Of a stretch of DNA of 64,000 nucleotides, positions 2,640 through 50,600 are shown in pieces. The notes beneath the pieces were generated by a model, which was not told where the DNA came from, did not search any database, and saw nothing but the letters and a program-made list of their open reading frames with translations. The position numbers and the translations under genes were made by a program. Numbering within the stretch: the first letter of the stretch is position 1; each line of letters starts with the position of its first letter. The DNA is from Fructobacillus papyrifericola (lineage in GTDB: Bacteria; Bacillota; Bacilli; Lactobacillales; Lactobacillaceae): NCBI RefSeq assembly GCF_018437235.1, contig NZ_JAAMFJ010000001.1, positions 248,001 to 312,000 on the forward strand. The letters are read 5' to 3'.

Positions 2640-5600
2640 ATGAAGAAGAACGGAACATTAAAAGAACATTTTAAAATGTACAAGGCCGGTAAAGTCTGGC
2701 TCTTTGCTGCAGTAATCGGTTTGACACTCGGGGCTGGTGCCCAAAGCGTCTCCGGCCTGATGACCTTACCAGGCTTCCCAACCGCTATTAAGGCATCGGC
2801 GGATGACGGAACCCGTCCATACTGGTTCGGTCAGAATGTTGATTACTTTAAGCACTATAACGAAACACCTGATAAGACAACGGTTCCCGAGAGCACCCAA
2901 GATGCTTGGCAAGCTGGTAAAACCGCTAATGAAATTGCTAGTTTAAAGAGTGATTCCCAATTTACCTATGATTCGTTGACTTACGATCAATCAACAGGTA
3001 AGTTCACGATGTCCTTAACCTTTAAAGTACCAACATTGGCAACCAATGGTGCTTCGCGGTCATCGTACTTTGATTTGGCCTTTTCACAGTCACTGACCTC
3101 AAAGATTAAGAGTACGCCAAGCTTTACGGCAGCTTCTGGTAGTCATGCGGACTTGAATTTTACCAATAATGTTTACAGTAACAGCTTTAACGCGGGTTCA
3201 ACAGTTGGTGGAACTTCGAAGATGTCACTGGTTATCGATCCTGTTAAGATTACTTCTAGTGATCAAATTACTGGAATGTTCTCGTCGGATACTGGAACTA
3301 CTGGTTATCACCCGATTTTCTCAGTTGTCCGTACTTTAGGTTACAACGACTTTGGTAATGCCTTTAACACACAGTTGTTGAATCAATTGAAGATCAATTC
3401 AAACGGTAAAATTGATAACCTGAACCACTTGAATGATGATCAAAAGAATGATTTCCACAATCAGATTAATAACGAAAACACCAACAATGACTTCGTTAAC
3501 GATTTGGATAACATTGATAAAAAGGCGGCAGATGCAGATAGCAACGCCGCTGGTTTGGTGACTGCAAAGACGGCTGCCAAAGCCGCAGTTGATCAGGCTG
3601 CAACCAATGCCAAGGCAAAAATTGATGGGATGAGCGGCCTTACTGACGATCAGAAGAAAGCCGCGAAGGCTAAGATTGATGCCGATGACGCTGCGGCCGA
3701 TAAGAACATCGATAATGCCACTGACACGGATGGTATTAACAACGCCCAGACAAACGGCATCAACCAAATCAACAGTGATGCCGACAATGCACAAGCTAAA
3801 GCTGACGCAAAGTCTGCAATCGATTCTGCCGCCACTGATGCCAAAAACACGATTGATAACACGCCTGGACTGTCTGATACGGATAAGACCAATGCGAAAA
3901 ATAAAGTCGATCAAGACGAGCAAACGCTAAGACTAACATTGATAACGCCACTGACAGTAAGGGAATCGATGATGCGAAGACGGCGGGTATCGCTGCCATT
4001 AAAAAGGACGCCGATGATGCCGCTGGCCAGGGTGAAGCAAAGACCAATGCCAAGAAGGCCATTGATCAGGCTGCAACCGATGCCAAAAACAAGATTGATG
4101 CGCTAAACAATTTGACGCCCGACCAAAAGTCAGCCGCCAAAGCCAAAATTGATGCTGACGCTGACGCTGCCAAGAAGAATGTCGACAATGCGACCGACAC
4201 AGACGGCATCAACAAGGCCCAAACCGATGGGACGAACACAATCGATAACGATGTCAAGGGTTCGACTTTAGATGATGACAAGGCCGGTGCAAAGAATGAC
4301 ATTGACAAGGCTGCAACCGACGCCAAGAACAAGGTTGATGGTTTGAGTAACCTGACTCCTGCTCAAAAACAGGCCGCTAAGGATAAAATCGATCAAGATG
4401 CCACCGCTGCGAAGACGAACATCGACAATGCCACTGATTCCAACGGTGTGGATAAGGCGAAAAGTGACGGAATTGACGCCATCAACAAGGACATTGCCGA
4501 CAACAACGACGCCAACAACATCAACGGTGCCAAGAGTGATGCCAAAGCCAACATCGACAAAGCCGCAACCGACGCTAAGAACAAGATTGATGGCCTCAAC
4601 AATTTGACGCCCGACCAAAAGTCAGCCGCCAAAGCCAAAATCGATGCTGACGCTGACGCCGCCAAGAAGAACGTGGACAACGCCACCGATACTAACGGCG
4701 TGAACAATGCCACAAACGATGGCACCAACAACATCAACAATGATGTTAACGGGGCCTCACTTGATAACGACAAGGCTGGTGCCAAGAACAACATCGATAA
4801 CGCCGCAACCGACGCCAAGAACAAGATTGACGCCCTCAACAATTTGACGCCTGACCAAAAGTCAGCCGCCAAAGCCAAAATCGATGCTGACGCTGACGCA
4901 GCCAAGAAGAATGTCGACAGCGCCACCGATACTAACGGTGTGAACAATGCCACGAACGATGGCACCAACAACATCAACAATGACGTCAAGGGATCGACCC
5001 TCGACGACGACAAGGCCGGTGCCAAGAAGGCCATCGATGACGCAGCCAACAAAGCCAACTCAGATATCGATAACTCCGACATGCCAGATGCTGACAAGAC
5101 AGCTAAGAAGGCCAAAGTCGCCCAAGACGCCAGCGATGCTAAGAAGGCCATCGACGACAGTGACAATAGCGACGATGTGAACAAGAACCAAACCGACGGT
5201 GTTAATAAGATCAAAAGCGATTCCGACGACACACCATCCGATGCCGAAAAGAACAAGGCAAAGCAGGCCATTGACGATGCAGCCAACGATGCTAAGAAAA
5301 AGATCGATGGTTTGAACAACTTGACCCCTGACGAAAAAGCCAAGGCAAAGGCCAAGATTGATGCCGATGCTGCCAAGGCCAAGGCAGGTGTCGACAATGC
5401 CAAGACGCCAACTGACATGAACAAGTCCCAGGACGATGGCACCAACGACATCAACAATGACATAAAAGACGGTGTCAAAAACGACATCGACAACAACGCC
5501 AAGAATGCCATTGATAAAGTCAACAACATGAGCAACCTGACGCCCGATGAAAAGCAAAAGGCCATCGATAAGATCAAGGCCGATGCCGACAAGGCCAAGG

Positions 5601-6115
5601 GCGATGTTGACAATAGTTCCAACGGCGATGACGCAGTCAAAGCTGGCGGCAACGGTAACAACAATGTCTTTGACGATACCAAGGACGCCGGTCACAAGGA
5701 CATCGACAACGCCGTCACCAACGGCATTAACAAGATCAATAACATGAACAACCTGACTCCAGCCGAAAAGCAAGCTGCCATCGATAAGCTCAAGGCCGAT
5801 GGAAAGGCTGCCTCGGACGACTTGGACAAGAGTGGTTCGCTCTCTGATATCACCAATGCACTGATCACTGGCGATGCCAAGTTGAAGGTGGACATTAAGG
5901 ACAACCAGACGACCAACGACGATCGTCATACTGCCGCCACTCCAGCTGCCAAAGTTGCTGCGCTCACAGCGCCAGTCATGGCCAAGGCAGCCGCAATGCC
6001 TCACACAGCTGAAGAAATGCTGCAGAACGCTTGGGCCCAAGCACTGGTCCTCGTCGCAGCCATCCTTTCCATGGCCGCTACGGTCTGGACAAAGATCACC
6101 AAGAAGGAAAACTAA
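2640..6115 (+). pseudogene. Large DUF1542-repeat surface adhesin, split by a frameshift near 3918
   Basis: This is a cell-wall-anchored surface protein of about 1,157 codons in two frames. The ATG has a GGGGG-type ribosome-binding site upstream. Residues about 13-21 fit the KxYKxGKxW signal motif (KMYKAGKVW), followed by a hydrophobic segment and a likely cleavage near IKASA. A unique domain of about 230 residues comes next, then tandem DUF1542-like helical repeats of about 80 residues (NLTPDQK..AAKAKIDADAD). The first frame ends at 4106 in non-repeat junk, while the repeat pattern continues without a gap in the next frame from about 3920. Losing one base at 3918-3920 explains this (expected D-D-A-N-A-K). 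The second frame ends with MPHTA, a membrane helix and KITKKEN, an MPxTA-type sortase signal. Frameshift, assembly error and phase-off state cannot be told apart here. Confidence 0.75.
4109..5080 (+). repeat. 240-bp tandem repeats within the DUF1542 region
   Basis: Units begin at 4109, 4349 (252 bp), 4601 and 4841. The 4601-4840 and 4841-about 5040 units are nearly identical in DNA, including a long run starting AATTTGACGCC. The unit length is 80 codons. Such identity favours recombination and copy-number change, and is a hazard for short-read assembly. Confidence 0.75.
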
Positions 6116-8924: not shown

Positions 8925-8960
8925 GATAGTCAAACGATAAAAAGAACCTTGGTTCTGACA

Positions 8961-8999
8961 AATACCCCGAAAGTTATCATCACTTTCGGGGTATTTTTA
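8961..8999 (+). terminator. Terminator after the 8514 gene
   Basis: AAATACCCCGAAAGT pairs with ACTTTCGGGGTATTTTT across a 6-7 nt loop. Confidence 0.92.
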
Positions 9000-9070
9000 T
9001 TTTCTTTTTTATTATTGACCGAATCAAACTGGTCGTCGTTATTGTGGTTAAAGACACCATTCTGAAACAT

Positions 9071-9098
9071 TTGAAAAAAAAAAAAAAACGACTACAAT
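9071..9098 (+). promoter_or_regulatory. Promoter of the 9178 adhesin with a 15-A homopolymer spacer
   Basis: TTGAAA (9071-9076) matches the -35 consensus at five of six bases and TACAAT (9093-9098) is a good -10. The 16-bp spacer is almost entirely the A tract 9074-9088 (15 A). Slipped-strand changes of one or two A would move the spacing across the 17-bp optimum. A palindrome ACAATTTAATTGT overlaps the -10. Confidence 0.65.
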
Positions 9099-9177
9099 TT
9101 AATTGTAATTTAATATTCACCTGATGGTCATCCGGCTAATTTTTAACCTCATTTCCACCAGATGGGAAGAAGGAAAA

Positions 9178-12100
9178 ATGAAGTACAATAAGCATTTTCT
9201 AAATAAAGTCGATGACAAGAAGCATTTACGCAAGGTCAAGAAGCAATGGGTCGTCGTTTCGATGGCATCATTTGCTTTGGTTACTGGTGGCGGCCTTGCC
9301 GTATCACAAATTAACCATGTGTTGCCAGGGATTGTGCCAACGTTTATTTCAAATAGCGTCAACCACAAAGCAAGTGCCGACACAACTGATCCGATTCCAT
9401 CTGGTTTAGCACAGGGAACTTATTCTAAGGATAATGTACCAGCTGGGATGGATAAGAAAGAATTTACTTCATGGGGTATGTTCAGCGTTGGTGTGTCTGT
9501 AGATGGTTCTCCTGCAGAGGGAGTGACACATGATACGAATACGGGGCGCGATGTCCATGAGATAACTTTTCAGCGTCAATTAATTGTAGATTCAACGGGA
9601 GCGCATTGGGGTGATTGGACAATGCTCACATCTGATGGCAACGGTGATTTTCAATCTATATTACTAAGTGGTGATTCTGGCATAGTTCATTTTTCTGGAA
9701 CTGCTGTTTCTGACCCAAATTTTGTTGCCCCTACTGGGTTTTATGTTGGGGATGTGAACAAACTAAATTATGTTTCAACTACTAACTATAATTTAACTAG
9801 TTCAGATGCTGTGCCTGTTGTTAGTTCCCCAGATGGTGATCGTTATCAGCTTCAAATTACTAAGACAACGTTGGATACTGGTGTGCCCTTTGCTAATCTA
9901 GATGTTAAGGCAGGTATTGATAAACTGAAAAGTGATTATACTGCTAGTCCTGATTTTAATGCTCCTGAACACTACCTTTTCGGTTACACGGTTAACTTTA
10001 CCTCTAAGACGAAAGATACGACGGAAACAAAAACCTTTACTCGCACCATTAAGTATGTCGACCAATCTGGCAATGAAGTAAAGAGTCCTAAAACAGAATC
10101 GATTACGCTGTCTCGAAAGGTAACTACTAATCTTTATACGAATAAAGTGACAACCGGAGACTGGACCGTCGATGGCACCAACGGTTGGGCAGATAACACC
10201 CCCGTTGACCAAACCATCACCGACAGTAATGGTAATGTCATCTATGACAATCCAAAGTTGAACGGTGCTGCGGTTACTTCCATTCCAGGTAAGACAGCCG
10301 ATGAAATTAATGGTGATGAAACGGATACGGTGGTCTATGGCGATCACACTTCATCCGTCACCCCCGACACACCCAACCTGCCTGACAACATTAAGAAGCA
10401 GTTGGAGCAGGATGTTACCCGTACTATCCACTACCGGAATGCAGCCAACCACGCCGAATCTGTTCACGATGATGTCGTGCAACACGCTACGGCCAAGTTC
10501 TCCGCTCAATACGATTGGAAGACTGGTGAGTTAGTGAAGAATTCTTCTGGTTCCGTTGATAAGACCTTGATTCAAGCGCCAACCTTTGATGGCCAGGCGG
10601 ATCCAACGGTTGCTGGTTGGAAGTTCGTTTCACACGATTCGGCCGATTCCGATCCAACGACGAACTACACAGAAGGAAACAATGGGGACGTTAATCCCAA
10701 CATTTCAAACATTGAATCTTACTCATACTACGATAAGACTTCAACCATTGGTCCCAACGGTCCTGTAAACCCCAACGATCCCGTTATCCCAGATAACAAG
10801 AAGGATACGGTCAAAAACGATTTGTCTCGTACTTACCACCGCACGGTAACCTTGAAAGGCCGTGATGGGGTAGTACTTGGCACAAAGGATGAAACGGTGA
10901 CCTACACGCGGACGGCAACCTTTGATTACGCCACTGGTGAAATCGTTCCTGGTTCCGAAACCGCTTGGACCCTGTCTGGTTCAGACAACAAGTGGGACGA
11001 AGTGACGGGTGACGCCACCATCGATCATGATGGCACGCACTACATCAAGGAATCCGGTGCCGATGGTACGGATCCTGAACCAAACAAGACCTTTAACCCC
11101 GATACGGATGCCTCGATTGCGAACCAAGAAGATACCATTTGGTACGATGCCACGGCTGCACCTTCCGCAACGGACACGGACAAGGACGTTAAGCGGACCA
11201 TCTACTTCAAGGCGGATGATGGCACGGTCTTGGATACCAAAGTCCAATCCGTTCACTTCCACCGCGATGGTTACATCAACCAAACGACCAACCAGTTTGT
11301 GCCAACCTCCGATTGGTACGTTCAGGGCCTGCCAAATGAAATGGCAGCGGTTGGTGCCGAAGACTTTTCAAGTCAAGGCTACGAACCGGATACGTCCAAG
11401 CAGACCTCTGTTTCGGCTTTGACGCCGGACAAGGGCGATACTTCTGAACCCGATCAAACGATTTGGTACAAGGACAAGACCGGTAACATCACGCCCAATA
11501 CGCCAAAGCACAACCCCAACAATGGTCCTGACATTCCACAAGGCATCCTCGATTCCTTGACAAAGAAAGTTACGCGGACCATCCACTACAAGGGGCGTGA
11601 TGGCCAAGACCTGGGTGACAAGGTTCAAACGGTGACCTTCAAGGGGTCGGCCGAATACGATTGGAAGACCCAACAGCTCGTTGGTCCAATCACTTGGGAT
11701 AACGGTGATGGCAACTGGCCGGCAAACGATGCCCCCGCAACCATTCAAAAGGATGGGGCAACCTACCGGAACCCCGACCAACCACACACGGATGCACAGG
11801 ACGTCACGATTAATATGGCCAATGCCGAAGTGACCGTTCTCTACGACAAGACCCGTGACGTGGTCCCATCCGACAATGCGGATACGGACCGGGATAAGGT
11901 CCGGACCTTCCACTTGCTCGATGGTAACGATGGAAACCGGGAGTTTGGCACGACTAAGCAAACGACCCACTTCCACCGGGATGCGCTCTACTTTGATGAA
12001 ACGACGAACCAGATTGTCTATGGTAACTGGTCAGCCGATAACGATTCGAAGTGGGCCGCATACAACGCCCCAGACGAATCGGACAAGGGTTACGTGAATG

Positions 12101-13199: not shown

Positions 13200-15878
13200 A
13201 TGATGCAGAGCAATCAATTATTTAAATCATATCAAGCAAAGAAATTCTGGGTAACGGGTTTGGCTAGCTTAACACTAATCACTTTGGCCAGTAGTAATCA
13301 AAAGGTGCTGGCGGATGGGTCGCAAGAAACATCGGTTGTTAGCCAATTAGGTAAGCCTGCGGCAAGTGATGATTTGCCTGTGACCGTTACAAAGGATAAC
13401 TTTTTACAGTATTTTAGTCTTGGTGGTACGGCAACCTATGATTCAAGCACGAATAAGGCAACGCTAACGCAAAACGAGAACGGCCAAGATGGTAATATTA
13501 CCCTAAAAACGAAGATCAATGCCAATGTTCCTTTTTGGATCTCTGGAACCATTAACTTGGGAACAAATCTCGATGGAATAACCGGTGGTGATGGCATTGC
13601 CATGGCGTTTCACCATGGTTCGGATGGCCAGATTGGTTTCCAAGGTGGCGGTATTTCGATTAAGGGTTTGCCAAAATCATCTGGTTTTATCTTCGATACT
13701 TGGACTCTAAATCAAGGAGACTATTCGAAGATTTATATGTCAGGGATTCACAGTGATGTGGATCAAACCGATCAGAATGACCCATGGCGTTATGCTGGTC
13801 AACCAGATTATTTGAACGTGTCTGAGATTGCGGGTAAAGATGTGCCGTTCACGCTTACTTATGATGGACAGGGACACATGACAATGTCTTATCTAGGAGT
13901 CAGTCGTACGATTGATGTTGATGACTATCAAGATCCATTGTCCTTGTCGATTGGTGGTTCAACGGGAATTGCGGATAATGTACAGACTGTGTCGATTAAT
14001 TCCTTCCAATTTGTACCAGCGCAGACAAACCCGGCGACACGAACCATCCATTATGTTGATCAGGATGGTAATGAAATCGCTTCGCCAACCGTACAGCAAG
14101 CGGTTTACCGCCGTACGGGAAGACTGCAGGACGGCAAGGCAGTCTATACTGATTGGCAGTTGATTTCAGGTGATCCAAACTTTGCGGCCGTAGAAGCCCC
14201 AACCATTGCCGGCTACACGGTTCAGTCTGGTCAACAAACTTTTTTTGCGGCCACGACAGTGAGTGAAGATTCCGGTTCTTCAAGTTATACAGTTAAGTAT
14301 ACAAAGAATGCGAACCAAGCGACGTTGAACGTCCAAGATAGTACCATTGTTTCTGGGCCTAACGCTAGTTGGAATGCAGCCGATAACTTCCTGAAGGCCG
14401 TTAATTCAGATGGTTCAACCGTCAATTTATCAGATGTCAAGGTTGATGGAACGGTTGATGTTAAGACTCCTGGCGAATATGATGTAACTTATAGTTATAC
14501 GGATAAAAATGGTAAGCTTCAAAAGCAGACTGCTAAAGTGACAGTCATGGCTTCTAAGTCCAACCTTGAAGTGAAGGACTTAACACTTTGGGTTGGTGAT
14601 TCTTGGGATGCCAAGGATAACGTAGTTCGTGCAACGGATGAATACGGAAATAGCTTGAATTTGAAGTATGTCAACGTTCAGGGAAGCGTTGATACTTCGA
14701 AGGCTGGTGTTTATCCACTGACCTATACTTATACTGATACAAGTGGTAATAGCTTTACGAAAACAGCTAATGTTACTGTGAAAGCACTAACAACTACTTC
14801 CACTGAATCAAAGACGGTGAAGGAAAACGTCCACTATCAGTACGAGGATGGCAAGACGGCTGCTGACACCTACACGAAGGAGGTCACTTTCACCCGGACC
14901 GTAACTAAGAATGAAAAGACGGGTGATGTTAGCTATGGTGACTGGTCAGCAGACCAGACCTTTGCTGCAGTCGACAGTCCTTCAATTAAGGGTTACACGG
15001 CAGATAAAGTATCAATTACTTCTCAAACGGTTAATGGAAATTCTGGCGATTTGAATTTTACGGTAACTTATATGGAGGACACGCCGGAAGTAACAACGCA
15101 AAGAACTACGGTTAAAGAAACCATTAATTATCAGTATGAAGACGGCACGAAAGCTGCTCAACCATATACAAAGAATCTTACCTTTACCCGTTCCGTTTCA
15201 ACTGATGCGGTAACAGGTGAAAAGACCTATGGTGCTTGGTCAGCTGATCAAACATTTGACGCCGTTACGAGTCCTTCTATCGCAGGATATACTGCAGATC
15301 AATCGAATGTTGCAGCACAAACCGTTAATGGTAATTCAACCGATTTGAACTTTACGGTGATCTATAAGAAGAACTCCTCTGCTAATAATGGTGGCAACAC
15401 GCCATCGAACAACGGTGGCAACACACCATCGAACAATGGTGGCAACACGCCATCAAACAACGGTGGCAACACGCCATCGAACAATGGTGGCAACACACCA
15501 TCGAACAATGGTGGCAACACACCATCGAACAACGGTGGCAACACACCATCGAACAATGGCGGCAACACACCATCGAACAATGGCGGCAATACACCATCTA
15601 ACAATGGGGGAGACGGAGTAAATAACACGCCAGCCAATAACAATGGCAATGGTGGTTCTTCCTCAAATAGTACTAACACGGTTCTTCCTTCAACCGGTGG
15701 TAATGAAGCTCCTGCTACGTCATCTGCTTCTACTGCTAATGCAACGAAGAATAATAAGGTTTTGCCAGCAACTGCTAAGAAGGTAGCTAACAACGCAACC
15801 GTTCTTGCAGCAATGCTTGCCCTTATTTCAGCTGCTAGCTACGCTTTCTTTACCAAGAAGCGTCGTGAAGAGAAGTAA
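13200..15878 (+). CDS. L-type lectin / MucBP cell-wall adhesin with tandem repeat stalk
   Basis: This 892-residue protein has a signal peptide ending near VLADG (about 38). An L-type (legume-like) lectin domain at about 55-275 carries the typical [11 protein letters not shown] and [16 protein letters not shown] pieces. A MucBP unit (about 278-372), two bacterial Ig-like units (about 374-525, [12 protein letters not shown] pattern) and two further MucBP-type units ([30 protein letters not shown]) follow. Next is an NNGGNTPS repeat stalk at 729-800. The C-terminus has LPSTG at about 829, then LPATA at about 855, a membrane helix and TKKRREEK. The LPATA motif sits directly before the helix and is the likelier sorting signal. 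The protein is probably a wall-linked carbohydrate-binding adhesin. Confidence 0.88.
15384..15599 (+). repeat. Nine 24-bp tandem repeats encoding NNGGNTPS
   Basis: Nine in-frame copies of AACAATGGTGGCAACACNCC-type units differ only at silent positions, and a partial tenth follows. They form the wall-spanning stalk of the lectin-domain adhesin. A copy-number change would lengthen or shorten the stalk without a frameshift. Confidence 0.93.
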
Positions 15879-15971: not shown

Positions 15972-16100
15972 GTAAAAGACAAAGAATTGAATCGGTTTTT
16001 TATTCAATTCTACGGGATGATTTTGGAACTGTTCGGTACCTGAGGGTTAGAAAATGTTTTCATTTCACGGATGGTATCAGTCCTTAAGGGGGATAGTTTG

Positions 16101-18202
16101 ATGGAATATAAGCACTATAAAATGTTTAAATCTGTCAAGAAATGGGTTGTAGCTTCTGTTGCGGCATTCGCGATGCTTGGCCTTGGACAGGTGACGACGC
16201 AGCAGGGGACACACTTTGGTCAACGTGAAGTGGCCGCAGCTGATGGTACGACTTTGGCAGATGCGCAAAGTGCAGCAAAGACTGCCTTGGAAAGCGCAGC
16301 AGGTACGGCGAAGGATCCGGGAAATGTCAGTTGGACCGCTGATAAGAATAATGGCGTTCGAATGGCCTTTGGTGGCTTGGGACAGGATCTTACCAGCGAG
16401 GACATGCACTTAAATACTTCAGCTAATGTGACGGTGTCCACAGATGACCAGTCTGCCATTCAACAGGTTCTGAGCGACTATGAAAACAAGGTGGCATCGG
16501 CAACCTCGGTTGATGAAGTGACATCTCTGCAACAGGAAGGGACTGCTAAATTGGCCTTGATGGGTGTTAAAATTCAGGCCAAGGCAATGCTCGCTCAAGA
16601 TTATCAAAACGTTTCTTCTGGAACGGTCTATTTGCTGAATAAGGAAGCAGAGGCCGATGCTAAGCAGACGCCAATTCGCTTTGAAACATCCGTTGCTTCA
16701 CAGGACAATTATCAAAATACCATTCAAAATGCCTATCAAGATGCCTTGACTTATATCGATAACTATAGCGGAACCGCACAAGGCCTTTCGGATGAAATGA
16801 CCAGCACGAACATTAGTACTGGTTTAGCGAACAAGATTCGTACACTTTATTACCCAATTATTCAGGCAGAATATCGTAACGATAACCGCTACTATGCTTA
16901 TTCAAACATGGTAAGTACCTATACGTTAATGGGAAATTCCACTGTTCCAAGTGACCAATACAGCACTGTTTTAGATGCTCTGGAAAAGGTGAACGGGGAG
17001 GTGGACGCCACGCCTGTGAGTGCCGGAATTCACAATACGAATTACTGGATGTCGATGGGAAAAGCAATGGCGACAGCGGGCATCCAAGCCTTGACTAAAC
17101 AAACAGAAGCTGTTTCGAGTGAAGACAAGACTGCCATTGAATCCATTGCAAATAAGGGCTTGGCGGATGTTGCGCCGTTAATGATCCAAGTATTGGTTGG
17201 GTTCGTCCTGCTCAAATTTTTGCGCAGGTCAAGTCAGATGTGTTGAGTTTGATTTCAAACAAAACCATTACGCGAACGATTAAGTATGTCGATGCTGAGG
17301 ATCCTAACAAGGAAGTTGCTGATTCAAGGACGGATACGGTGCAACTTAGTCAAGGCTTTACGGTTAATAATTACACTGTGACGTCTAACGGTTGGACCAG
17401 CGGGACTTTTGAAGCAGTGCCATCGCCAGATCTGTCTGCTAAGGGCTACAAGGCAGCTGATCAAGCCACGGTTGATGCATCGACGGTGACAAATGGTGAT
17501 TCGGACCAAACCATTGTGGTGAAGTATGCCCATGATACGGCCGTTCGGACGGCTGATGATCCGGGTTCTTTGCCCGTTAGTGATCTTCAAAAGACGGTGA
17601 CGCGGACGATTCGCTACGTGGATGCTACTGGTAAGCAGCTGGCGGAGCCAACGGTCCAAACGGTTACGTTGAAGCGTGAGGCTACGGAGGACTTGGTTAC
17701 CAAGCAAGTGCTTTCTTATGGTGACTGGACAGTTGCTTCCGGTGACTGGTCAGCGGTGCCTGTGCCCGAAACTTTGGCCAGCGGAGACTATACGACACCA
17801 AAGGTGAATGGTGAAGCAGTTTCGACGGTTACGGCTGATTCCGTAACAGCGGATAGCTCGGACCAAACCGTCACGGTTGTCTATCAAGAAAAGGACGCTG
17901 CGGAAAAGAATAATGCTGGCCAAAAGAATGATCAGAACCAGAGCGGATCTGGTGACCGGAACGTGAATGGTGGGCAGAGCTCGACTGGAACGAACGCATC
18001 AGCTCAAGATAAGCAGTCTAGGACAAACGATAGCGTTTCTGCAACGGCTACAAGCGCTGTTAAGAAAGTTGAAGCGGTTTCTTCTGGCTTGCCTGAGACG
18101 GCTAAGCAGGTCGTCACGAATCCATTTGGAATTGCTGGTTTGGCTGCGTTGTCAGCCGCTAGCTACGCCTTCTTTACAAAGAAGCGCCGTGATGAAAAGT
18201 AA
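16101..18202 (+). pseudogene. MucBP surface adhesin with LPETA anchor, frameshifted near 17175-17207
   Basis: The ATG at 16101 follows AAGGGGGA. The signal region is SVKKWVVASVAAFAMLGLG. Residues about 45-375 form a helix-rich unique domain with no family I recognise. The first frame then drifts into an unlikely hydrophobic tail and stops at 17246. In the next frame the protein continues (IFAQVKSDVLSL..TITRTIKYVD) with two MucBP units, a Ser/Asn/Gln-rich linker, LPETA, a membrane helix and TKKRRDEK. A small indel between about 17175 and 17207 explains the break. The 3' end, from the anchor helix through the terminator, closely resembles that of the lectin-domain adhesin, so the two genes share an ancestral end. 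Loss of function, phase-off state and sequencing error all remain possible. Confidence 0.72.
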
Positions 18203-18319: not shown

Positions 18320-18392
18320 TAAATTAAAGACATCTAAAGTGGAATGTTTCTGAATAAAGATGTTCTTAAAGTAATTGGTATGGAGGTCAACG

Positions 18393-19340
18393 ATGGATTT
18401 AAAAGATTATAAACAAGCAAGGGAAATCGGAATTAACAGTACGGCTTTGAATAACTATGTTGGTTATTCTCGTGGTTACTTGGAACCCGGAAACATCGGT
18501 GAAGGTTATTTGACTGGATTGAAGGTCGATGCCGCTGCCACGCTGTTAACAGATGATACGATGCTTGATAATATTTCGTCCTACGATCGGGCAGAGGCGA
18601 AGAACGCAAATCTCGCACAGATTAACATGGAAACGGCTTCTTCCTTTACGGGTCCACAAGGAAATATCATTGGCTATGACTTTTTACGAAACACGGCGTT
18701 AAAGGATCAAAAGCCCATGTATACGCGAACACAATGGGATGGCTCAGAGCTGCCAATTTATGATGCGAAACCACTACAGGATGCCTTGGTTGAGTACTTA
18801 GGTACTGTCGATGAACCCCGTTTTAAGACTGTTCCAGCCGCTTTTATCACTTGTGCCAATAAGGGGGCAATGGCAAAGCGGCCAAAGGATGATCGGCCAT
18901 TGAAGCCCGGTGAAGGTTATGGTGTCTGGTCCGCAATTGCCTTGTCAATCGCCAATGATCCAGTTCACCACTCTTCAATGTACGTGGAAGATGCTGGGGT
19001 TTGGACCAAGTCTGACAGTGAAGAGGATTTGATCGATTATCTCAATACACGAAAGGCCGCCATGGCCCAATCAATTGCCTACTGTGGTAAGCACGCCAAG
19101 ACGACTTTTAAAGCGACCTACATTGGCTTTGCACACACCATGCTGAAGCCGGGTGAATTTGGAACGGCCATTACGGTCGGCCCATATTTGACCATGCCTT
19201 TTGATGCTGTGCCCGATGCTCGCCGTACCAATGCTTCTGCTGAAGATGCAATGGATACGATGCGTAAGTTGAGCCTGCAAGACTGGTTGAAGGAAATGAA
19301 CTACGAATCACTCGTTGAAAAAAATAACATTACTTACTAA
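18393..19340 (+). CDS. hdcA: Pyruvoyl-dependent histidine decarboxylase proenzyme
   Basis: HdcA decarboxylates histidine to histamine, consuming a proton. The ATG at 18393 follows GGAGG, giving 315 residues, the usual size. The self-cleavage motif TASSFTG (about residues 79-85) is intact, so the chain can split between the two Ser to make the beta subunit and the pyruvoyl-capped alpha subunit. Other family blocks are present: GYLEPGNIGEGY, TQWDGSELPIYDAKPLQDAL, ANKGAMAKRPK and GEGYGVWSAIALS. The Glu of IGFAHTMLKPGEFG lies near the expected active-site segment. It starts an apparent operon with the antiporter and HdcB. With export of histamine the pathway supports acid resistance and a proton-motive force, as known for lactic acid bacteria. 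Confidence 0.96.
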   Translation: MDLKDYKQAREIGINSTALNNYVGYSRGYLEPGNIGEGYLTGLKVDAAATLLTDDTMLDNISSYDRAEAKNANLAQINMETASSFTGPQGNIIGYDFLRNTALKDQKPMYTRTQWDGSELPIYDAKPLQDALVEYLGTVDEPRFKTVPAAFITCANKGAMAKRPKDDRPLKPGEGYGVWSAIALSIANDPVHHSSMYVEDAGVWTKSDSEEDLIDYLNTRKAAMAQSIAYCGKHAKTTFKATYIGFAHTMLKPGEFGTAITVGPYLTMPFDAVPDARRTNASAEDAMDTMRKLSLQDWLKEMNYESLVEKNNITY

Positions 19341-19364
19341 CTCAGTTTCTTTTGGAGGATTCTT

Positions 19365-20825
19365 TTGGCTACAAAACAAGCGAAAAAATTAGGAACGATC
19401 GGCTTAATCGGCTTGATTGTTCCAGCAATGATTGGTGGTGGGGCCTACGACCTGCCCCAAAACATGGCCACGAACGCTGGGCTAATTGGTCAACTACTGG
19501 GATGGGCAGTTTCCGGTGCGATTATTTGGTGCCTGGTTTACTCATTTTTGTTCTTGTCGAAATTACGACCAAACTTCACTTCTGGCCTTTACATGTATGC
19601 AGAGGACGGCTTTGGAAAATTCACTGGATTCTTTGTGAGTTGGGGTTACTGGATTTGTGAGTGTTTTGCAAACATCACCTACTCCGTTCTTCTGGCATCA
19701 ACGTTAAATTCATTTTTCCCCGGTGTCTTTAAAGGTGGTAATAATCTGAATGCCATTATTTTGGGGACGGTCATTCTTTGGTTAATGACTGCACTTGTGT
19801 TGCATGGTATTCAGGGAGCAAGCTGGGTGGATAACATTTCAACAGCTGTGATTTTGCTTTCACTCGTGTTCTTCATTATCAGTATGATCTTTGTCTTCAA
19901 TCCCCATGTGTTTACAACCAATGTAATGGGAAATGAAAGCATTCGCCACTTACAAGATACGAACTTAGGTTCACTTTTCCACCAGATTAAAGACACGATG
20001 ATGGTCACTCTCTGGGTCTTTGGTGGTGTCGAAGGGGCCGTTGTCTTGTCAGGTGATGCGAAGAGTCAAAAAAACGTTCGCAATGCGACAAAATGGGGCT
20101 TTATCATTTGCTTGATCATTTATGCCGCTGTTTCCGTGCTGGCTCTTGGCTTCCGCAGTTATGGTTAGGTTGCCAACATGGCGTCACCATCAACGGGTGC
20201 CCTTCTTGCTGCAATTTACGGACCAATTGGCCGGATTATTATTGGCATTAGTGTCATTGTAGCCGTATTGGCTTCCTGGTTGACCTGGGTTCTGCTTCTT
20301 TCAGAAATGCCACGCGCTGCCGCTAATACGGGCTCCTTCCCGCAGTCATTTAAGAAGGTGAATAAGAATAACATGCCTTCATATTCAATCATCGTCTCAA
20401 CCTTGGTTATGCAGGTTATTTTGTTCTCAACGGCCTTTGCAGGTAAGGCCTTTAATACCATGTTGACGATTGTTGGAACAATGACGGTTCCGCCATATCT
20501 GATTTCGATGATGTACCTTTTTAAGATTAGCTTGAATGAAAAGTCATTTAATCCAACTGGAGCAAAAATTGGCTTCACCCGAACTCGGCCATTGATTTAT
20601 TCGGGCTTGGCTGTTCTTGGAACCCTTTACATGGGCTATTCAGCTGGGATTAAATACACGGCGCTTTCCTTTATCATTTATGCGCTTGGTATTCCGGTCT
20701 ACATGTGGGCGCGCAAGCACACCGCGGGCCAAACAACAAAAGCCATCTTTACCAAGTATGAAAAGATTTTTGTTATTTGTATCCTAGTGGTTGCAGTTGG
20801 CAGTTCGCTTTTGATGTTGCGATAG
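19365..20825 (+). pseudogene. hdcP: Histidine/histamine antiporter (APC family) with an in-frame TAG
   Basis: This is a polytopic amino-acid/amine exchanger of the APC superfamily, about 486 codons, starting at TTG (19365) after GGAGG. Early glycine-rich motifs (IVPAMIGGGAYDLPQNMA) match HdcP/ArcD-type transporters, and about twelve membrane helices are visible over the whole frame. A TAG at 20166-20168 interrupts it after GFRSYG; the frame resumes at once with VANMASPSTGALL, a conserved loop of the family. A sense codon such as CAG before VANM is the simple ancestor. The stop falls after about seven helices, so neither half should transport alone. Unless the stop is a sequencing error or is suppressed, histidine/histamine exchange is broken although hdcA and hdcB look intact. 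The order hdcA-hdcP-hdcB differs from the common hdcP-hdcA-hdcB. Confidence 0.85.
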
Positions 20826-21632: not shown

Positions 21633-23372
21633 TTACTGTTCATTTTTCTTCGAACGAGTAAAGAAGAGAGCAAGTGATGCAGTAGTTACTGATAAGAATG
21701 TAGCAGGAACTGCAAATTTTTCAGTGCGCTTTGCAGTGCTTGGTAAGATACCAGCTACATACTGACTGTGCTTCGTGTTAACAGATTGGCCGCTGTTATC
21801 ACCATTCGTACTTGGCAATACAGCGCTTGGTACTTTGAAGCCGCCATTGCTATTGTTGTTATTGGAACCGTTAGCACCGTTGCCATGATCACCGTTATTG
21901 TTTGGTGTAGGTGTAGGTGTTGGGTTGACTGGTGTTGGAACAGGATTTTCATCCGTATCGTAGGTGATTGTGATTGATGAATCCGTATCAGTATCATCTG
22001 CCTTTACGGTCTTTGCAACGTTTTCCGTTCCATCAACAACGTGATAACCCGATACCGTGTCGTCGACTTTGGCAAAGGTGTCATTATTTGTCTGCCAGTT
22101 TGACGTTGCCGTGAAGTTTCCGTTTTCATCCAAATCACCTTCACGGGTAAAGGTAACTGTTTCAACTTGATCTGGCTTTACTTGATGACCCTTGGTGTCA
22201 ACGAAGTGGACCGTACGCTTGAAGGTCTTAACAACATCACTTTCGTGTCCGTCTGCGTTGTTGGCATTAATCGGCGTCTTTGAAGTCTTGTAGGTGACGG
22301 TCACGTTATTGTTGTTTTGGCTAACGTCGTTTAGCGTCACATCCGAAGTTGAATCTGGGTTGCTGTAGGTGACATTACCGTTCGTGATTTGGCTTGGAAT
22401 GCTGTAGCTTGGTGCGTTACCATCCTCGGTCCAAGTAATGTTGCCTAGAGTATTGTTATTCCAGTCGTATTCAGCCGAACCACTGAAGGTTGCCGTCAAC
22501 GTTTGGGAGCCAAGGTTTTCGCCCTTTGGTCCTTTGAGGGTGACCGTTCGAGAAACTGTCTTGGTCAGCTGATCCTTGATGTTTTCAGGAAGGTTGGCCG
22601 TATTACTGTTGACGGTTGATTGGTGATTCTTCAAGTAGACGTAGACATCGTTTTGGGTGTTGTGGTGACTAGCCGTCCATTGCGTACCGTAGTCTTTGTG
22701 GTTAGGAATTGAATCGAAAGTAGCAATGGAACCGCTGCCCGCGCTCACTGAAGAAATGGCGTTGCCATTTGCATCCACGGCATTGGAGTAACCTTCAATC
22801 GTAGGGATGGCTAAACTATCAAAGTGGTACAGGCCGTCTGAACTTGCTTTAGTGGTACCAGTACCATCGTTTGCTGCAAGGCCGAACGGACCGAAACCTT
22901 CACCTGAGAGGGCGGTTCTTGCGTTGTTTGTCGTCACATAGCGCGTAAGTAATTCGTTTGCGTTTTGAGTGACCGTTTTAATATCAGCGGCATTCGGATT
23001 GTTTTTATCACTATAATTCCGAAAATGAATCGTCCGGACAGGGGTAACGTTCATATCGTCTTTTGAAATTAAATCAGAAGGGAACTGGATGCCCGCGTTG
23101 CTAAGTGTTCCAGAATATGTGCCCGCAGCACCAAACTGGAAGAGTGAGGTACCACTAGTAAAAGTAAAATCTTCATTAGCAAAGATTCCTAAATCGCTAT
23201 TATCCGCTGAAACGGTGGTTGTATTTGGCAAGACCGTTTGATTCGTCATCACATTTGCTGAACCAAGTAGTCCGAGCGTTACAACTGATACGACAACCCA
23301 GTTTTTCTTTACTTTACGTAAAAGCTTGCGATTAACAAGCTGTGTAGAATTTTTCTTTAAATTGTTAAGCAT
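21633..23372 (-). CDS. MucBP cell-wall adhesin with LPSTN and LPSTA motifs
   Basis: This 579-residue surface protein starts at ATG 23372 after AAGGAGG. The signal (RKVKKNWVVVSVVTLGLLGSA) is close in sequence to that of the 9178 adhesin, and cleavage is likely near TVSAD (about 57). A unique domain (about 58-265) is followed by two MucBP-like units (RTVTLKGPKGENLG; RTVHFVDTKGHQVKPDQ). A Pro/Thr/Asn-rich stalk (PTPTPTPNNNG) leads to LPSTN at about 528, then LPSTA at about 552, a membrane helix and FTRSKKNEQ. As in its relatives, the A-type motif abuts the helix. It is intact and convergent with the hdc operon. Adhesion to mucin or glycans is inferred from the MucBP units. Confidence 0.85.
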   Translation of the reverse strand: MLNNLKKNSTQLVNRKLLRKVKKNWVVVSVVTLGLLGSANVMTNQTVLPNTTTVSADNSDLGIFANEDFTFTSGTSLFQFGAAGTYSGTLSNAGIQFPSDLISKDDMNVTPVRTIHFRNYSDKNNPNAADIKTVTQNANELLTRYVTTNNARTALSGEGFGPFGLAANDGTGTTKASSDGLYHFDSLAIPTIEGYSNAVDANGNAISSVSAGSGSIATFDSIPNHKDYGTQWTASHHNTQNDVYVYLKNHQSTVNSNTANLPENIKDQLTKTVSRTVTLKGPKGENLGSQTLTATFSGSAEYDWNNNTLGNITWTEDGNAPSYSIPSQITNGNVTYSNPDSTSDVTLNDVSQNNNNVTVTYKTSKTPINANNADGHESDVVKTFKRTVHFVDTKGHQVKPDQVETVTFTREGDLDENGNFTATSNWQTNNDTFAKVDDTVSGYHVVDGTENVAKTVKADDTDTDSSITITYDTDENPVPTPVNPTPTPTPNNNGDHGNGANGSNNNNSNGGFKVPSAVLPSTNGDNSGQSVNTKHSQYVAGILPSTAKRTEKFAVPATFLSVTTASLALFFTRSKKNEQ

Positions 23373-44605: not shown

Positions 44606-47600
44606 ATGATGACGAAAAAGACTTTGTTTTCACTCGTACCAGATAAGAAGACTTGGTTATTGGCCTCCACGGTCTTGCTTTCGGCCGGCCTTTCGGACGT
44701 GCTGAAGAACCAGCACCGGGTTTCAGCCGACGAGCAAACCATGGAACAACCGTCAAAGGAGAGTGCCGGCCAGTTCTCACCAACTAATCCGACCGAAAAG
44801 AAAAGGTAAGAAGTTGGAAAAAATTTGGAAGAACAGGCGTCAGCTGCTGTTTCTAATGAACAGAAGGAAGACCAATCGAATCAGGCCGATCAAAAGGTCA
44901 GCGATTCGAACAAAGCTCTGTCAGTAGTAAGAACAGAAGACCAACCGAAAGAAAAGACGGAAGAAGCAACTGGCGATGCCGTTGGAGTGGCACTTGGTCA
45001 GTCCCATCAGCAGGACCAAGAAGTCTTACCAGCTTCTGACCTGATTGTGAGTGAGCGGAATAAGCGGGATCTGCAGGACGTTGCCCGGTCCATCATGACC
45101 ATGGTGGAAGACAAGATTAAGCAGGCTTCGGGCCAGGCCCAAACGACTTCTTCGAATCCGAATAACGATCCACTGACGCCTTTGTATCAGGCAACCAAAA
45201 CGAGTACTTACGAAGAATTAGTTACGGCTTTGGGAAACTTCTTGCCCAACTTTGCCCATCCTGGTGAGGGAACTTTGGACGTCAACCATGAACACGTGGA
45301 TAAGCCAGGGGTGATGACTTTTGGTGTGCCAGATTACGCCTGGTTTGGTTATGGTAGCCAACGAAACGATTATTCCAACGTTTCCTACATGCGCTTAGTC
45401 ACCGACAAGAGCTTTGTCCGTTCAGTGGCCGACCATCTTTTCTCCTTGTTGGGCACTCCTTATAAGGGAACGAAGACCAATTACATGCCTGAAAACAAGG
45501 CCCTGGCCTTTTCGGGTGGCTTCCCATTTTACGCCGTCATCCAATCGAGTAACGGTTCGCTCTTGAGCCCGACTTATTACTTTGGCCAGTTGAACCGGAC
45601 CTTGCAAGCCATTACCAACCTCTTTACCTTTGGCTTGATTGATAACGAGTTGAATAACAACTATAACGACGGCCAATACGGAATTTATTTGCGTATGGAA
45701 GTACCGGACGGAACGGATCCGGACACCTTCGTGAAGACCTTGAACCTGAACAAGACGAAGTTTGGGGCGCAGATGGACTTTAACGTGAACCTGAGCATCG
45801 ATGAAATTCTGAACCGAATTCCAGGTGTTCGGACCCTGGTCTCCTCATCGCTTGGTGTGCCAATTTCTGGTTACGCCGGCTCGATTGTTGATTACCTGCT
45901 CGGTTCGGTGATTGACCAGGTCAACGAGAAGTATGGAACCGATTTGAAAGTCCGTGGCGTCGACAGTCCCTTCTACCCAATCACTCTTTATCCAAAGGAC
46001 ATTAAGACCAATGTTCAAGAGGATCCGAAGGGGATTTACTTCCTCGTTCGTGGGGCGGAGCTGAAGGACTTTGATTCCCTTTATCTCCAGGCTAAAATTC
46101 TGCTGACAAAGTTCTTTATGAACGCCTTATCCTGGGGCGGTAACATCGTTGGTGGCGCCTATGGTTATCTGAACTTTGACATCGATCAATACCCGGGTAA
46201 CCTGTCTTCAAAAGAGATGAAGAAGCTATATGGCAGTGCAGCTGACTCGAAAGTCTTGGCCGGCTTTGCCGACAACAGTCCCTTTAAGATTTTGACCCGT
46301 GGTCAGCTGCCACCACAGCCGGGTGGCCAATTGCAATTAGCGTGGAATTCAATCGATGCCAACGCCATGCTGTCGAAAGAAAGTCAGTACTATGATCATG
46401 GGGACCTCGGCCGTGATTTAGCCGTTGATCGCAACAAGATTCATGATAATCAGATGGTCACTGACAGTATTACCACCTGGCGGGCTTACATTTCACCCTT
46501 TGATCAAATGGGTGACTATAATCAAAAGGCCATTGCTTCATCCGTTGCCGAATTTGAGGAAGTCAAGGGCGTTGACCGGGTGCTTCCAGGACGTGATTTA
46601 GATCACCGAGAACTGGTCTTTTCAGCCGGTGAATCCTTCTATCAGGAACGAGACCGCTTTGACCGCGTGATTGATTACTTTGACGGCAAGGTGCTGCTGG
46701 ATGGCCAGGGTGTTCATCCAACAGATAAGGTCAAAAATGTGCATCTGGTCAAGTCCCTTGATCCAGAAGGGCGTTTTACTAAGGAGAGCGACTTTGCCAT
46801 TTATGACCGGGCCTTTACCGTTTACTACAGCGGTGATATGGAATTAGCTAATGGCAAGCGGATTGCGCTGCGACCAACCAAGGTTTCGGTGACGCAAAAG
46901 TCCGGGGCGGTCAACCATGAGCAGGTCAACAACCGAATCCAGGCCTATGGACAAGTGGCTAAACAGGCCCGCTTTATCCAAAAGACCGTCGAAAATTTGA
47001 CTCCTAAGCTGGCTGACTACCACGTGGCAAACGTGACCCACCTCTTACATGAGCGTTTAGTGGTTGCCAACCAGGCCATCGAATTGGCTAAAACCAAGGA
47101 AGAATGCGCCATTGCTGCCGACGTTGCCATTAAGGAATTAGTCAAGATTCAAGAAGAGGCCGTCCGTCACCATGACTTGGATACCGCCATTCAGCAATCG
47201 GCCCGTCAGTTGGGGCAGGTGGCCGTGGTGAAGGCCGCCTTTAATGAGAAAATTAACATTTCTGACGCCAGTGAACTGGCTAAGTCGAAATTGGCTAGCC
47301 TGCATGAGCAGGTACAGGTAGTGAAGGAAAACGTTGTCTCCAAATTGGCCAAGCTTGTCCAAGTTGATGAACAGAGTGGCCGTCTGAAGCGTTCAACCGG
47401 CCGTTCCCTGTCGGAAATCTTAACCGAAATTGAACGAGAAACAGCGGCTGGAATTCGCGAGATTAACAACATCTACATTCCAACTGCCATTCGTGACAAA
47501 GCCGTTGCTGAATTGACTGAAAGTGCCGACGAACGGAAGCAGGTCTTTGAAAAGATTGCCTTTGTCGATCCAGTAAGCCTGAAGCGATAGTCGAGCTTGG

Positions 47601-50600
47601 TTCAATCGAACGTGGAACTTTACGAGCGACGGATTCGAACGGCTAAGACGATGGAAGAAATTGATGCAGCAAAGGAAAAGGGTCTTACGGCCATTGATCA
47701 CGTTGCCGAACCAATCCGTCAAGAAGGCTATGAAGATGCGACAAAGCTGGACCGTGATACGGCCAAGGCTGCTCTGCAAGATTCTGCCGATCAAAAGACA
47801 AAGGCCTTTTCCGCCATTGAACACGTTGATGCCGATTCCTTGAAACAGCAGTTAACGACTTTGGCTGAAATGCTGGCCGATGCAAAGCAGGAAATTGACC
47901 AGGTCAAGACCAAGGGCGAGGTGAAGGCAGCCCTGAAGCACGGCTTAGCCATGCTGGACACGGTTACCGAGCCGGAACTCGAATTGGCCTACCAGGCCGT
48001 TGATGCCATTTCCCGTCAAAACGCCCGCGACGCCATCGATGCGGCTGCAAAGAACAAGCAGGCTTCGATGAACAAAGTCGCCCATGTTGATCAAGAGTCT
48101 TTGACAGAGCAGAGCACGCTCCTGCAAGAGATTGTGACGGCTGCCGCCAAGTCCATCGACGAAGCCGTTAACATGGCGGTCTTACGGGATGCCTTGACCA
48201 AGGGGCTTTCCGACATCGATAGTCTTGCCGATCCCGTTCGGGAGGCAGCTTACCGAAAGCCGGCCGTAGCTGATCAAGAAGCGGCTAAAAAGACTTTCCA
48301 GGAAGCTGTTTCTGAGAAGAAGGATGGCTTTAGTCAAATCGACGGCGTTGATGAAGATGGTTTGAACCAGGCCAAGGCCAGTCTCGATGGCATTTTGAAG
48401 GATGCCTTGGATGCGGTTAACCAGGCCAAAACGGCGGCAGACTTGGAGAAGGTCTTCCGCGATGCCTTGAATAAGATTGACCAGGTACCGGTACCTGCCG
48501 TGATTGAGGGAAAGCAAAGCGCGACGGACGAAGATCGTGACAAGGCGGTTAAGAAGGTTCAGGCTGCTGCAGCTAAGAAGCAACAAGATTTTGACCAGAC
48601 TGCCCACGTCGACGCCGAATCCTCCAAGCAGCAAAAGAAGGCCATTGAACGGGCCGTTCAAAAGGCCATCGATGCTATTAATCAGGCAAAGACCAAGGAT
48701 GACTTGGCCAAGACTTTGGCAGACGCCTTAGCAGCCATTGACCAAGTGGCGGCACCGAAGTTAGAAAAGGCCTATCGTCCGGTTAGCGAAGAAGCAAAGG
48801 CCGATGCCCACACGACTTTGAACCAGGCAGCGGCAGATAAGAAAGTCGCCATGGCTGGCGTCGAGCACGTTGACGCCAACTCGCTTGCAACACAAAAGGG
48901 CCTGGTCGATGACTTGTTATCCGATTACGGTCAACAAATTGACCAGGCTAAGCTGGAAGGCGACTTGCAAACAGCCCTCCAGAACGGCTTGGACGCCATT
49001 CAAAACGTGGCGGCACCGAGTCAAGAAGAAAGCTATCAACCGGCTAATGACAAAAAGAAAGCAGAAGCCAAGCAGACGATTGAAGCGGCCGTTGCTGAAA
49101 AGAAGCGGGCCTTTGAAAGCGTTGACCATGTCGATGCCGACAGCCTAAAGAAGCAGGAAGACGAGCTGACAACAATCCAAGAAAAGGGAAACAAGGCCGT
49201 TGATGAGGCTGATTCAAATGGTGCTGTTGACCGAAGCGTGGCCGATACTTTGGCCGAGCTGGGGCGGGTTGCAGAACCAGTACTGGAAGCCAACTATCAA
49301 CTGGCTTCGGAGTTAATGAAGGACATGGCGAAGCAGGCTCTGGTTTCCGAAGCGAAGGCGCAAGAAGAACGCTTTAAGGGAATTGCCCATGTTGATGAGG
49401 ACGATTTGAAGCAGCAGGTTAGCCTTTTGCAAAAGGTCTTGCAAGAAGCAGTGGCTGGGGTTGATCAAGCAAAGACACGCGGGAATGTGAAGCAGGCAGT
49501 TGAGAACGGCCTGGCCGCCATTGATGCCATCGCCGATCCAGTTGTTCAAGCCGATTATTTGCCAGTTTCTGATGATGAGCGTCAGGCGGCTTTGGACCTC
49601 TTGGACCGGGCTTTGGTGCATAAGCAGCAAGACTTTGACAAGATTGCCCACGTTGTCCAAGATAGTTTGGCTGAACAGAAGCAAATTCTTGCTCAGGCAG
49701 CCGACCAAGCAAAGCAGGAAGTATCCAAAGCGACGATTCATAGTGAGCTGGCCACTGCCTTGGACCGTGGCCTGAAGGCCATTGCAGCCGTAGCCGATCC
49801 AGCCATTGATTTCGTTTACCAACCGGCCGATCCGGATTCAAAGGATGCGGCGAACCAGGGAATCGATGATGCCGCCAAAGTCAAGAAGGACGGCTTTGCA
49901 AGCACTGACGGCGTGGATGAAGCATCCGCTAAGAAACAGGCGGATGCCGTTGACCAAGCTGTTTTGGATGGTAAGAAAGCGGTGGCGGCTGCCGGTAATC
50001 TGGGGGAGTTGGAAAAGGCTTTCCGCGATACATTGTCCGCTATCGATAAAGTCCAAGCACCGGCCGTTATTGAAGAAAATCAGACGGCAACGACTGCTGA
50101 TAAGGAACAGGCCAAGCATAAGTTGCAAGTGGCGGTCACAAACAAAAAGACGGCCTTTGAAGCGATCGAGCACGTTTCTTCCGATAGTTTAGCAGTGCAG
50201 AAGGGACTGCTTAATCAGGCCGCAAGGGATGGCGAGCAAGCCATTGACCATGCAGTTACCAAGGGGGATGTGGCGAGTGCCTTACAGAAGGCCCTTGCAA
50301 AGGTCAACCAGGTCAGCCAACCAAGTTTGGAAGCCCCTTACCAACGGGCGAGTCAGGCTGAAAAGAACCGGGCCATTGCCCTGATTTACCAAGCCGTTGA
50401 CCGGAAAACGAAGCGCTTCGAAGGAATCGACCATGTTGATGCCGTTAGCCTGAAAGTGGCCAAACAAGCCCTTGCTAGTGCTGAAAGCACGGCTGTTTCC
50501 GCCATTCAGGACGCAGCGACTCGCGGTGCCGTTGATCAGGCTTTGAGTCAGGGATTGGCTGCCATTAATGGGGTCAAGACGCCACAGATTCAACGGGCCT

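Follow-up and report, generated by a model that had tools for sequence, protein, structure and literature searches.

The promoter region of a putative adhesin gene in Fructobacillus papyrifericola contains a run of 15 adenines, most of which lies between the -35 and -10 hexamers (Table 1). The best reading of this arrangement, to which we give about an even chance of being correct, is that the run is a slippage-prone tract in the main-promoter spacer of a sortase-anchored Muc_B2 adhesin gene, and that changes in its length tune expression of the gene. The window, by which is meant the whole 64-kb stretch of DNA analyzed here, spans positions 248001–312000 of contig 1 in a nine-contig 1.30-Mb assembly (1,296,716 bases, 93% complete) and has a G+C content of 50%. 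Comparisons were made within the genus (Fructobacillus as delimited by GTDB; 13 genomes including this one, one genome per species) and within the family (397 Lactobacillaceae genomes, this one counted, drawn evenly from a larger group). The congener referred to below as F. fructosus is Fructobacillus fructosus KCTC 3544 (G011).

Table 1. Features of the adhesin gene and its upstream region (positions in the window)
Feature	Position	Strand	Basis or remark
Intrinsic terminator of the upstream gene	8960–8996	+	15-pair stem followed by a T-rich tail
-35 hexamer, TTGAAA	9071–9076	+	Last three A's shared with the A-run
A15 homopolymer, candidate hypermutable tract	9074–9088	+	Count of the run
16-bp promoter spacer, A12 followed by CGAC	9077–9092	+	Sequence
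-10 hexamer, TACAAT	9093–9098	+	TATACT at the aligned place in F. fructosus, 4/6 identical
25-nt block, -10 hexamer and presumed start-site region	9093–9117	+	21/25 identical in F. fructosus
Perfect palindrome TACAATTTAATTGTA, two seven-base arms around one base; possible operator	9093–9107	.	Covers the -10 hexamer
Putative adhesin gene, 1210 aa	9178–12810	+	KxYKxGKxW-like leader, seven Muc_B2 stretches, C-terminal LPSTG signal

Layout of the Probable Promoter

The 15 consecutive A's noted in the preliminary description are present. They had been said to make up nearly the whole of a 16-bp spacer; the spacing is indeed 16 bp, but the -35 hexamer accounts for three of the A's, which leaves 12 among the 16 bases of the spacer. 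Slips in the run should therefore alter the spacing and nothing else. The TTGAAA/TACAAT pair has 10 of 12 consensus matches and is the only promoter match of at least 9/12 on the plus strand of 8997–9170, a region in which a score of 10 is reached by 5% of 500 dinucleotide shuffles. The pair sits downstream of the terminator that ends the preceding gene and ahead of the probable start codon of the adhesin gene. It is the sole good match past that terminator, and the F. fructosus homologue is preceded by a conserved counterpart of the -10 block; position and conservation thus make this pair a credible promoter for the adhesin gene. The predicted fold of 9105–9200 is ordinary (z 0.33), and a search of viral contigs gave no match to the flank.

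The Putative Adhesin Gene and Neighboring Surface-Protein Genes

The start codon is most likely the ATG at 9178, which lies behind GAAGGA, rather than the ATG at 9124 of the mechanical open reading frame from which the domain scan was run. The leader scores 20.6 bits, under the Pfam cut-off of 23.6, and the Muc_B2 domain (PF17966) is matched at 2.2e-72. As judged by eye, the C-terminus carries LPSTG, a hydrophobic stretch and KKRK, and the Pfam Gram-positive anchor model stays under the listing threshold for the 1210-aa protein. The predicted product is a sortase-anchored Muc_B2 protein, a putative adhesin named from its domain content.

The window holds further surface-protein frames. A surface protein with GA and DUF1542 modules is encoded at 2640–6115 in two adjoining frames; the gene is broken near 4106–4112, inside a 240-bp tandem repeat array, and there is no long homopolymer near the break. 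The frame at 13200–15878 contains an L-type lectin domain, Muc_B2 and a Gram-positive anchor, and near the 3' end of this gene a 24-bp tandem repeat (15387–15607, 9.2 copies) is a candidate length-variable stalk. At 16071–18202, a frame with the leader (16071–17246) adjoins a Muc_B2 frame (17240–18202) in a different reading frame, and the two probably represent one broken adhesin gene; again, no long homopolymer is found at the junction. Beyond it, at 18375–20825, is a histamine-forming cluster: a pyruvoyl-type histidine decarboxylase gene (TIGR00541, 1.6e-123) and, after it, a gene for a histidine/histamine-type antiporter that occupies two adjoining frames (19365–20168 and 20178–20825), so that the transporter is apparently broken. 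Another surface-protein frame is located on the minus strand at 21633–23372. Farther along, a 921-aa frame with no Pfam match (44825–47590) is separated by an in-frame stop from a frame of 1772 aa that contains six DUF1542 stretches (47597–52915), and 44825–52915 is probably an interrupted giant surface-protein gene. Elsewhere in the genome, a paralogue sharing the leader occupies a 1284-codon frame (C1:532313). Consequently, the description of the gene behind the A-run as the largest intact adhesin is arguable, as both the 1772-aa frame and the 1284-codon frame are longer, although the former may belong to a broken gene.

Comparison with F. fructosus and Other Genes Sharing the Leader

Among the other genomes of the genus, the leader is matched best in F. 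fructosus (70% over 44 residues). The homologue is a 2601-codon frame with ten Muc_B2 stretches in the scanned part, and the tblastn relative of the adhesin lies in the same frame. Alignment of the -10 blocks (TACAATTTAATTGTAATTTAATATT against TATACTTTAATTGTCGTTTAATATT) places them at similar distances from the ATG, 85 bases here and 81 in F. fructosus. Their identity is reached by none of 400 dinucleotide shuffles, which give a maximum of 17 (ungapped, matched distance), for a block length of 25 nt that was picked after the alignment was seen. A gapped local alignment of both upstream regions is weakly significant, with its score reached by 9 of 500 plain shuffles; the ungapped test is thus the stronger of the two, but with a post hoc block length. 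In contrast to the window, the F. fructosus spacer is 18 bp long, from TTGTAA to TATACT (hexamers picked by eye), and contains no A-run. As the -10 block is conserved and the spacer is not, the comparison backs the -10 hexamer, while the A-run has no counterpart in this homologue, the nearest one found.

Upstream regions of genes sharing the leader could be read for 27 of 29 loci in the 13 genomes, the window's included; the other two (L034 and L039) are cut loci. None of the 26 readable regions other than the window's contains an A/T run longer than 9. Within this genome, no A/T run longer than 7 occurs in the 300–400 bases upstream of the other three genes with the leader, and the sharing of a tract among a gene family that characterizes vlp is not seen. 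Furthermore, TTG-A12 before a -10-like site is found in none of the other 12 Fructobacillus genomes.

Homopolymer Spacers in the Lactobacillaceae

Across the family, the pattern TTG-A12-N(3-9)-TANNNT is matched in 6 of 397 genomes, against one match for the reversed control (G207). Two matches were rejected as support for an adhesin pattern: that in G393 has merely 12 bp to the -10-like site, and that in G291 has no frame of at least 80 aa downstream on the same strand. Three of the six precede one gene in a single genus (g44), whose product is a Thioredoxin_5 (PF13743) protein and which adjoins a gene with a RelA/SpoT domain. We take this protein to be SpxH/YjbH from the gene order in Bacillus; NCBIfam gave no name for it. 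The gene was found in all 14 g44 genomes searched, and the upstream regions (L084–L097, about 50–90 bases before the match) are readable in 13, while one reads N.

With hexamers picked after the sequences had been read, 11 of the 13 regions have a spacing of exactly 16 bp between TTGAAA or TTGAAT and a -10-like hexamer. The longest run in these 16-bp spacers is A14 in three species, T15 in one, T12 in two, T11 in one and 6 to 9 bases in four. The two exceptions, at 13 bp (A11) and 14 bp (T10), are both pure runs. The spacers are A/T-rich throughout, with a run of at least 10 in 9 of the 13 readable species. Since the spacing is kept while the filling varies, a homopolymer in the spacer does not in itself make a switch; at the same time, the exceptions indicate that slips at such spacers still get fixed between species. 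The promoter before the SpxH-like gene resembles that of the window in that three species have TTG, A14, a short tail and a -10 hexamer at 16-bp spacing, but it differs in serving a non-surface gene and in its mostly conserved spacing across species.

These observations bear on a different explanation for the A-run, in which the stiffness that poly(dA:dT) gives to the stretch between the -35 and -10 hexamers is what maintains the run, as a structural spacer fixed at 16 bp and not as a switch. The near-constant 16 bp of the g44 spacers despite their changing filling, together with the same spacing in the window, is what such a role would produce. It is less easily squared with the two g44 species in which pure runs have shrunk the spacer to 13 and 14 bp, with the confinement of TTG-A12 before a -10-like site to this genome among the 13 of the genus, and with the F. 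fructosus homologue, which does without the run. We therefore consider a purely structural role possible but somewhat unlikely. A broader proposal, that the Lactobacillaceae repeatedly use A/T homopolymers in the core-promoter spacer as a slippable design, would join the Fructobacillus adhesin with the SpxH-like proteolysis adaptor, for which a 16-bp optimum would be selected and slips would give the 13- and 14-bp variants, presumably of lower expression; this proposal is highly tentative and, in our judgment, improbable.

Rarity of the Run

The assembly contains eight A/T runs of at least 9 bases: six of 9, one T13 and the A15. Runs of 10, 11, 12 or 14 are absent, and the second-longest A/T run in the window is 8. 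The T13 (C1:315872, 3.9 kb past the window) lies behind a gene, after a short inverted repeat, and, judged by eye, is an ordinary terminator. The A15 is thus the only A/T run of at least 10 in the assembly that lies outside a terminator, and the suggestion that it is the only long homopolymer in a promoter, made at first for the window, holds assembly-wide for A/T runs of that length. The genome also has two G/C runs of at least 8. Extending the six 9-base runs at a per-base ratio of 0.2–0.3 (the ratio measured in the window is 0.17–0.34) gives an expectation of 0.0004–0.004 runs of at least 15 bases. A Markov null for run length was trained on the window, which contains the A15, and one order-3 simulation reached 16; for this reason, the rarity argument rests on the run counts. 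By these counts, the A15 is well beyond chance. Runs of at least 12 occur in three of the 13 Fructobacillus genomes, and only here is the run inside a recognizable promoter spacer; as judged by eye, the 12-base run in G008 is preceded by a hairpin on the other strand, and the 13-base run in G006 has no recognizable -35/-10 pair.

The same counts weigh on the idea that a short A-run after TTGAAA expanded by chance or neutrally, or that its length was mis-called, and that expression is hardly affected. Short seeds occur widely in the genus: TTG-A7 before a loose -10 is matched 26 times, in 11 of the 13 genomes, vs 16 times for the reversed control. In addition, this is a draft assembly, and reported tract lengths are described as sometimes differing from those of the culture (PMC9187656). 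However, the absence of runs of 10, 11, 12 and 14 indicates that there is no general drift toward long A/T runs, and the expectation from extension is very small. Expansion without consequence, or a mis-called length, is accordingly an unlikely explanation.

Proposed Slippage and Tuning of Expression

The palindrome over the -10 hexamer resembles operators of the MarR/OhrR type, and no second exact copy of TACAATTTAATTGTA exists in this genome and none in the 12 congeners. A coupling of the tract to a regulator, in which the palindrome is the operator and its distance from an upstream element depends on the length of the tract, would draw on the perfect 15-bp symmetry and on the altered binding-site spacing that the authors of the R28 work propose (PMC7098570), but it is very improbable, as the left half of the palindrome is not conserved in F. 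fructosus and no partner site was identified for it.

Under the preferred reading, slippage in the A15 tract, gain or loss of A's would keep both hexamers whole, as the -35 hexamer would retain its three A's at any length. Each step would change the spacing by one base, such that 14, 15 and 16 A's would give 15, 16 and 17 bp. Small steps would tune transcription and larger ones would silence the adhesin gene, resulting in a population mixed for the surface adhesin. On this reading, the length of the tract would vary at a useful rate, and this variation would matter to the cell.

In a synthetic promoter library in E. coli, a 17-bp spacer is reported to be best and 16 bp about equal on average, and spacers of 15 to 19 bp are all reported as highly expressed (PMC8695583). 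If Fructobacillus behaves alike, a single slip, to 15 or 17 bp, would tune rather than switch the promoter, and near silence would need larger changes in length. The mutS gene scores over the cut-off in all 13 Fructobacillus genomes, and in this genome a full-length mutS frame is followed by full-length mutL. There is thus no repair defect to boost slippage, and repair should slow it. By analogy with the precedents from mycoplasma and Gram-positive bacteria, the surface-protein target counts in favor of slippage tuning. Counting against it are the mutS and mutL frames, the activity of 15–19 bp spacers in E. coli, the g44 spacers and the lack of a tract at the other genes sharing the leader. 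The preliminary description had proposed a phase-variable adhesin promoter. The promoter, the position of the tract in its spacer and the surface-protein target are all supported, but an ON/OFF switch is probably an overstatement in view of the E. coli data, the repair genes and the g44 spacers.

If the tract varies, this fructophilic lactic acid bacterium would have a contingency locus in the promoter spacer of an adhesin gene, which could connect heterogeneity at the cell surface with living on insects or plants. In the open PMC literature, searched by titles and abstract openings (subscription papers and preprints being outside this scope), no such case was found in fructophilic bacteria, and in the one paper that contains both Fructobacillus and phase variation, the latter is confined to the reference list.

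Comparison with Known Systems

In Mycoplasma hyorhinis, the A tract of the vlp genes lies between the -35 and -10 hexamers. The likeness to the A15 is one of layout, as both are homopolymeric A tracts in the promoter of a surface-protein gene, and in this respect the comparison with vlp drawn at the outset is apt. It does not extend to a family with the tract on all members, given the 26 other upstream regions described above. Every vlp gene bears the tract and switching is reported, whereas here one gene bears it, as known from the sequence of a single genome with full-length mutS and mutL. Insertions and deletions in the vlp tract are reported to switch transcription of the surface genes, and dinucleotide repeats are reported in the promoter spacer of vmm (PMC10502178).

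Another parallel is Spy1336/R28 of Streptococcus pyogenes, where tracts of 9, 10 and 11 T are reported to give three transcript states (PMC7098570). Like the gene in the window, R28 encodes a Gram-positive LPXTG surface protein, and its transcript level is reported to follow the length of an A/T homopolymer. Unlike the A15, the R28 tract is described as lying between divergent genes, with a proposed action via regulator binding sites and not via a core spacer.

The Propionibacterium acnes tracts of PPA1880 and HPT_37 share with the A15 a position inside a putative -35/-10 spacer, and PPA1880 is described as a putative adhesin gene with strain-dependent tract lengths (PMC3224659, PMC4746626). 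These tracts differ in being G or C, and the spacings given for PPA1880 are 18, 20 and 23 bp. The strain reported to secrete the PPA1880 product is one near the consensus spacing length. If variation of the A15 is confirmed, the adhesin promoter of F. papyrifericola would join the type represented by vlp, R28 and PPA1880.
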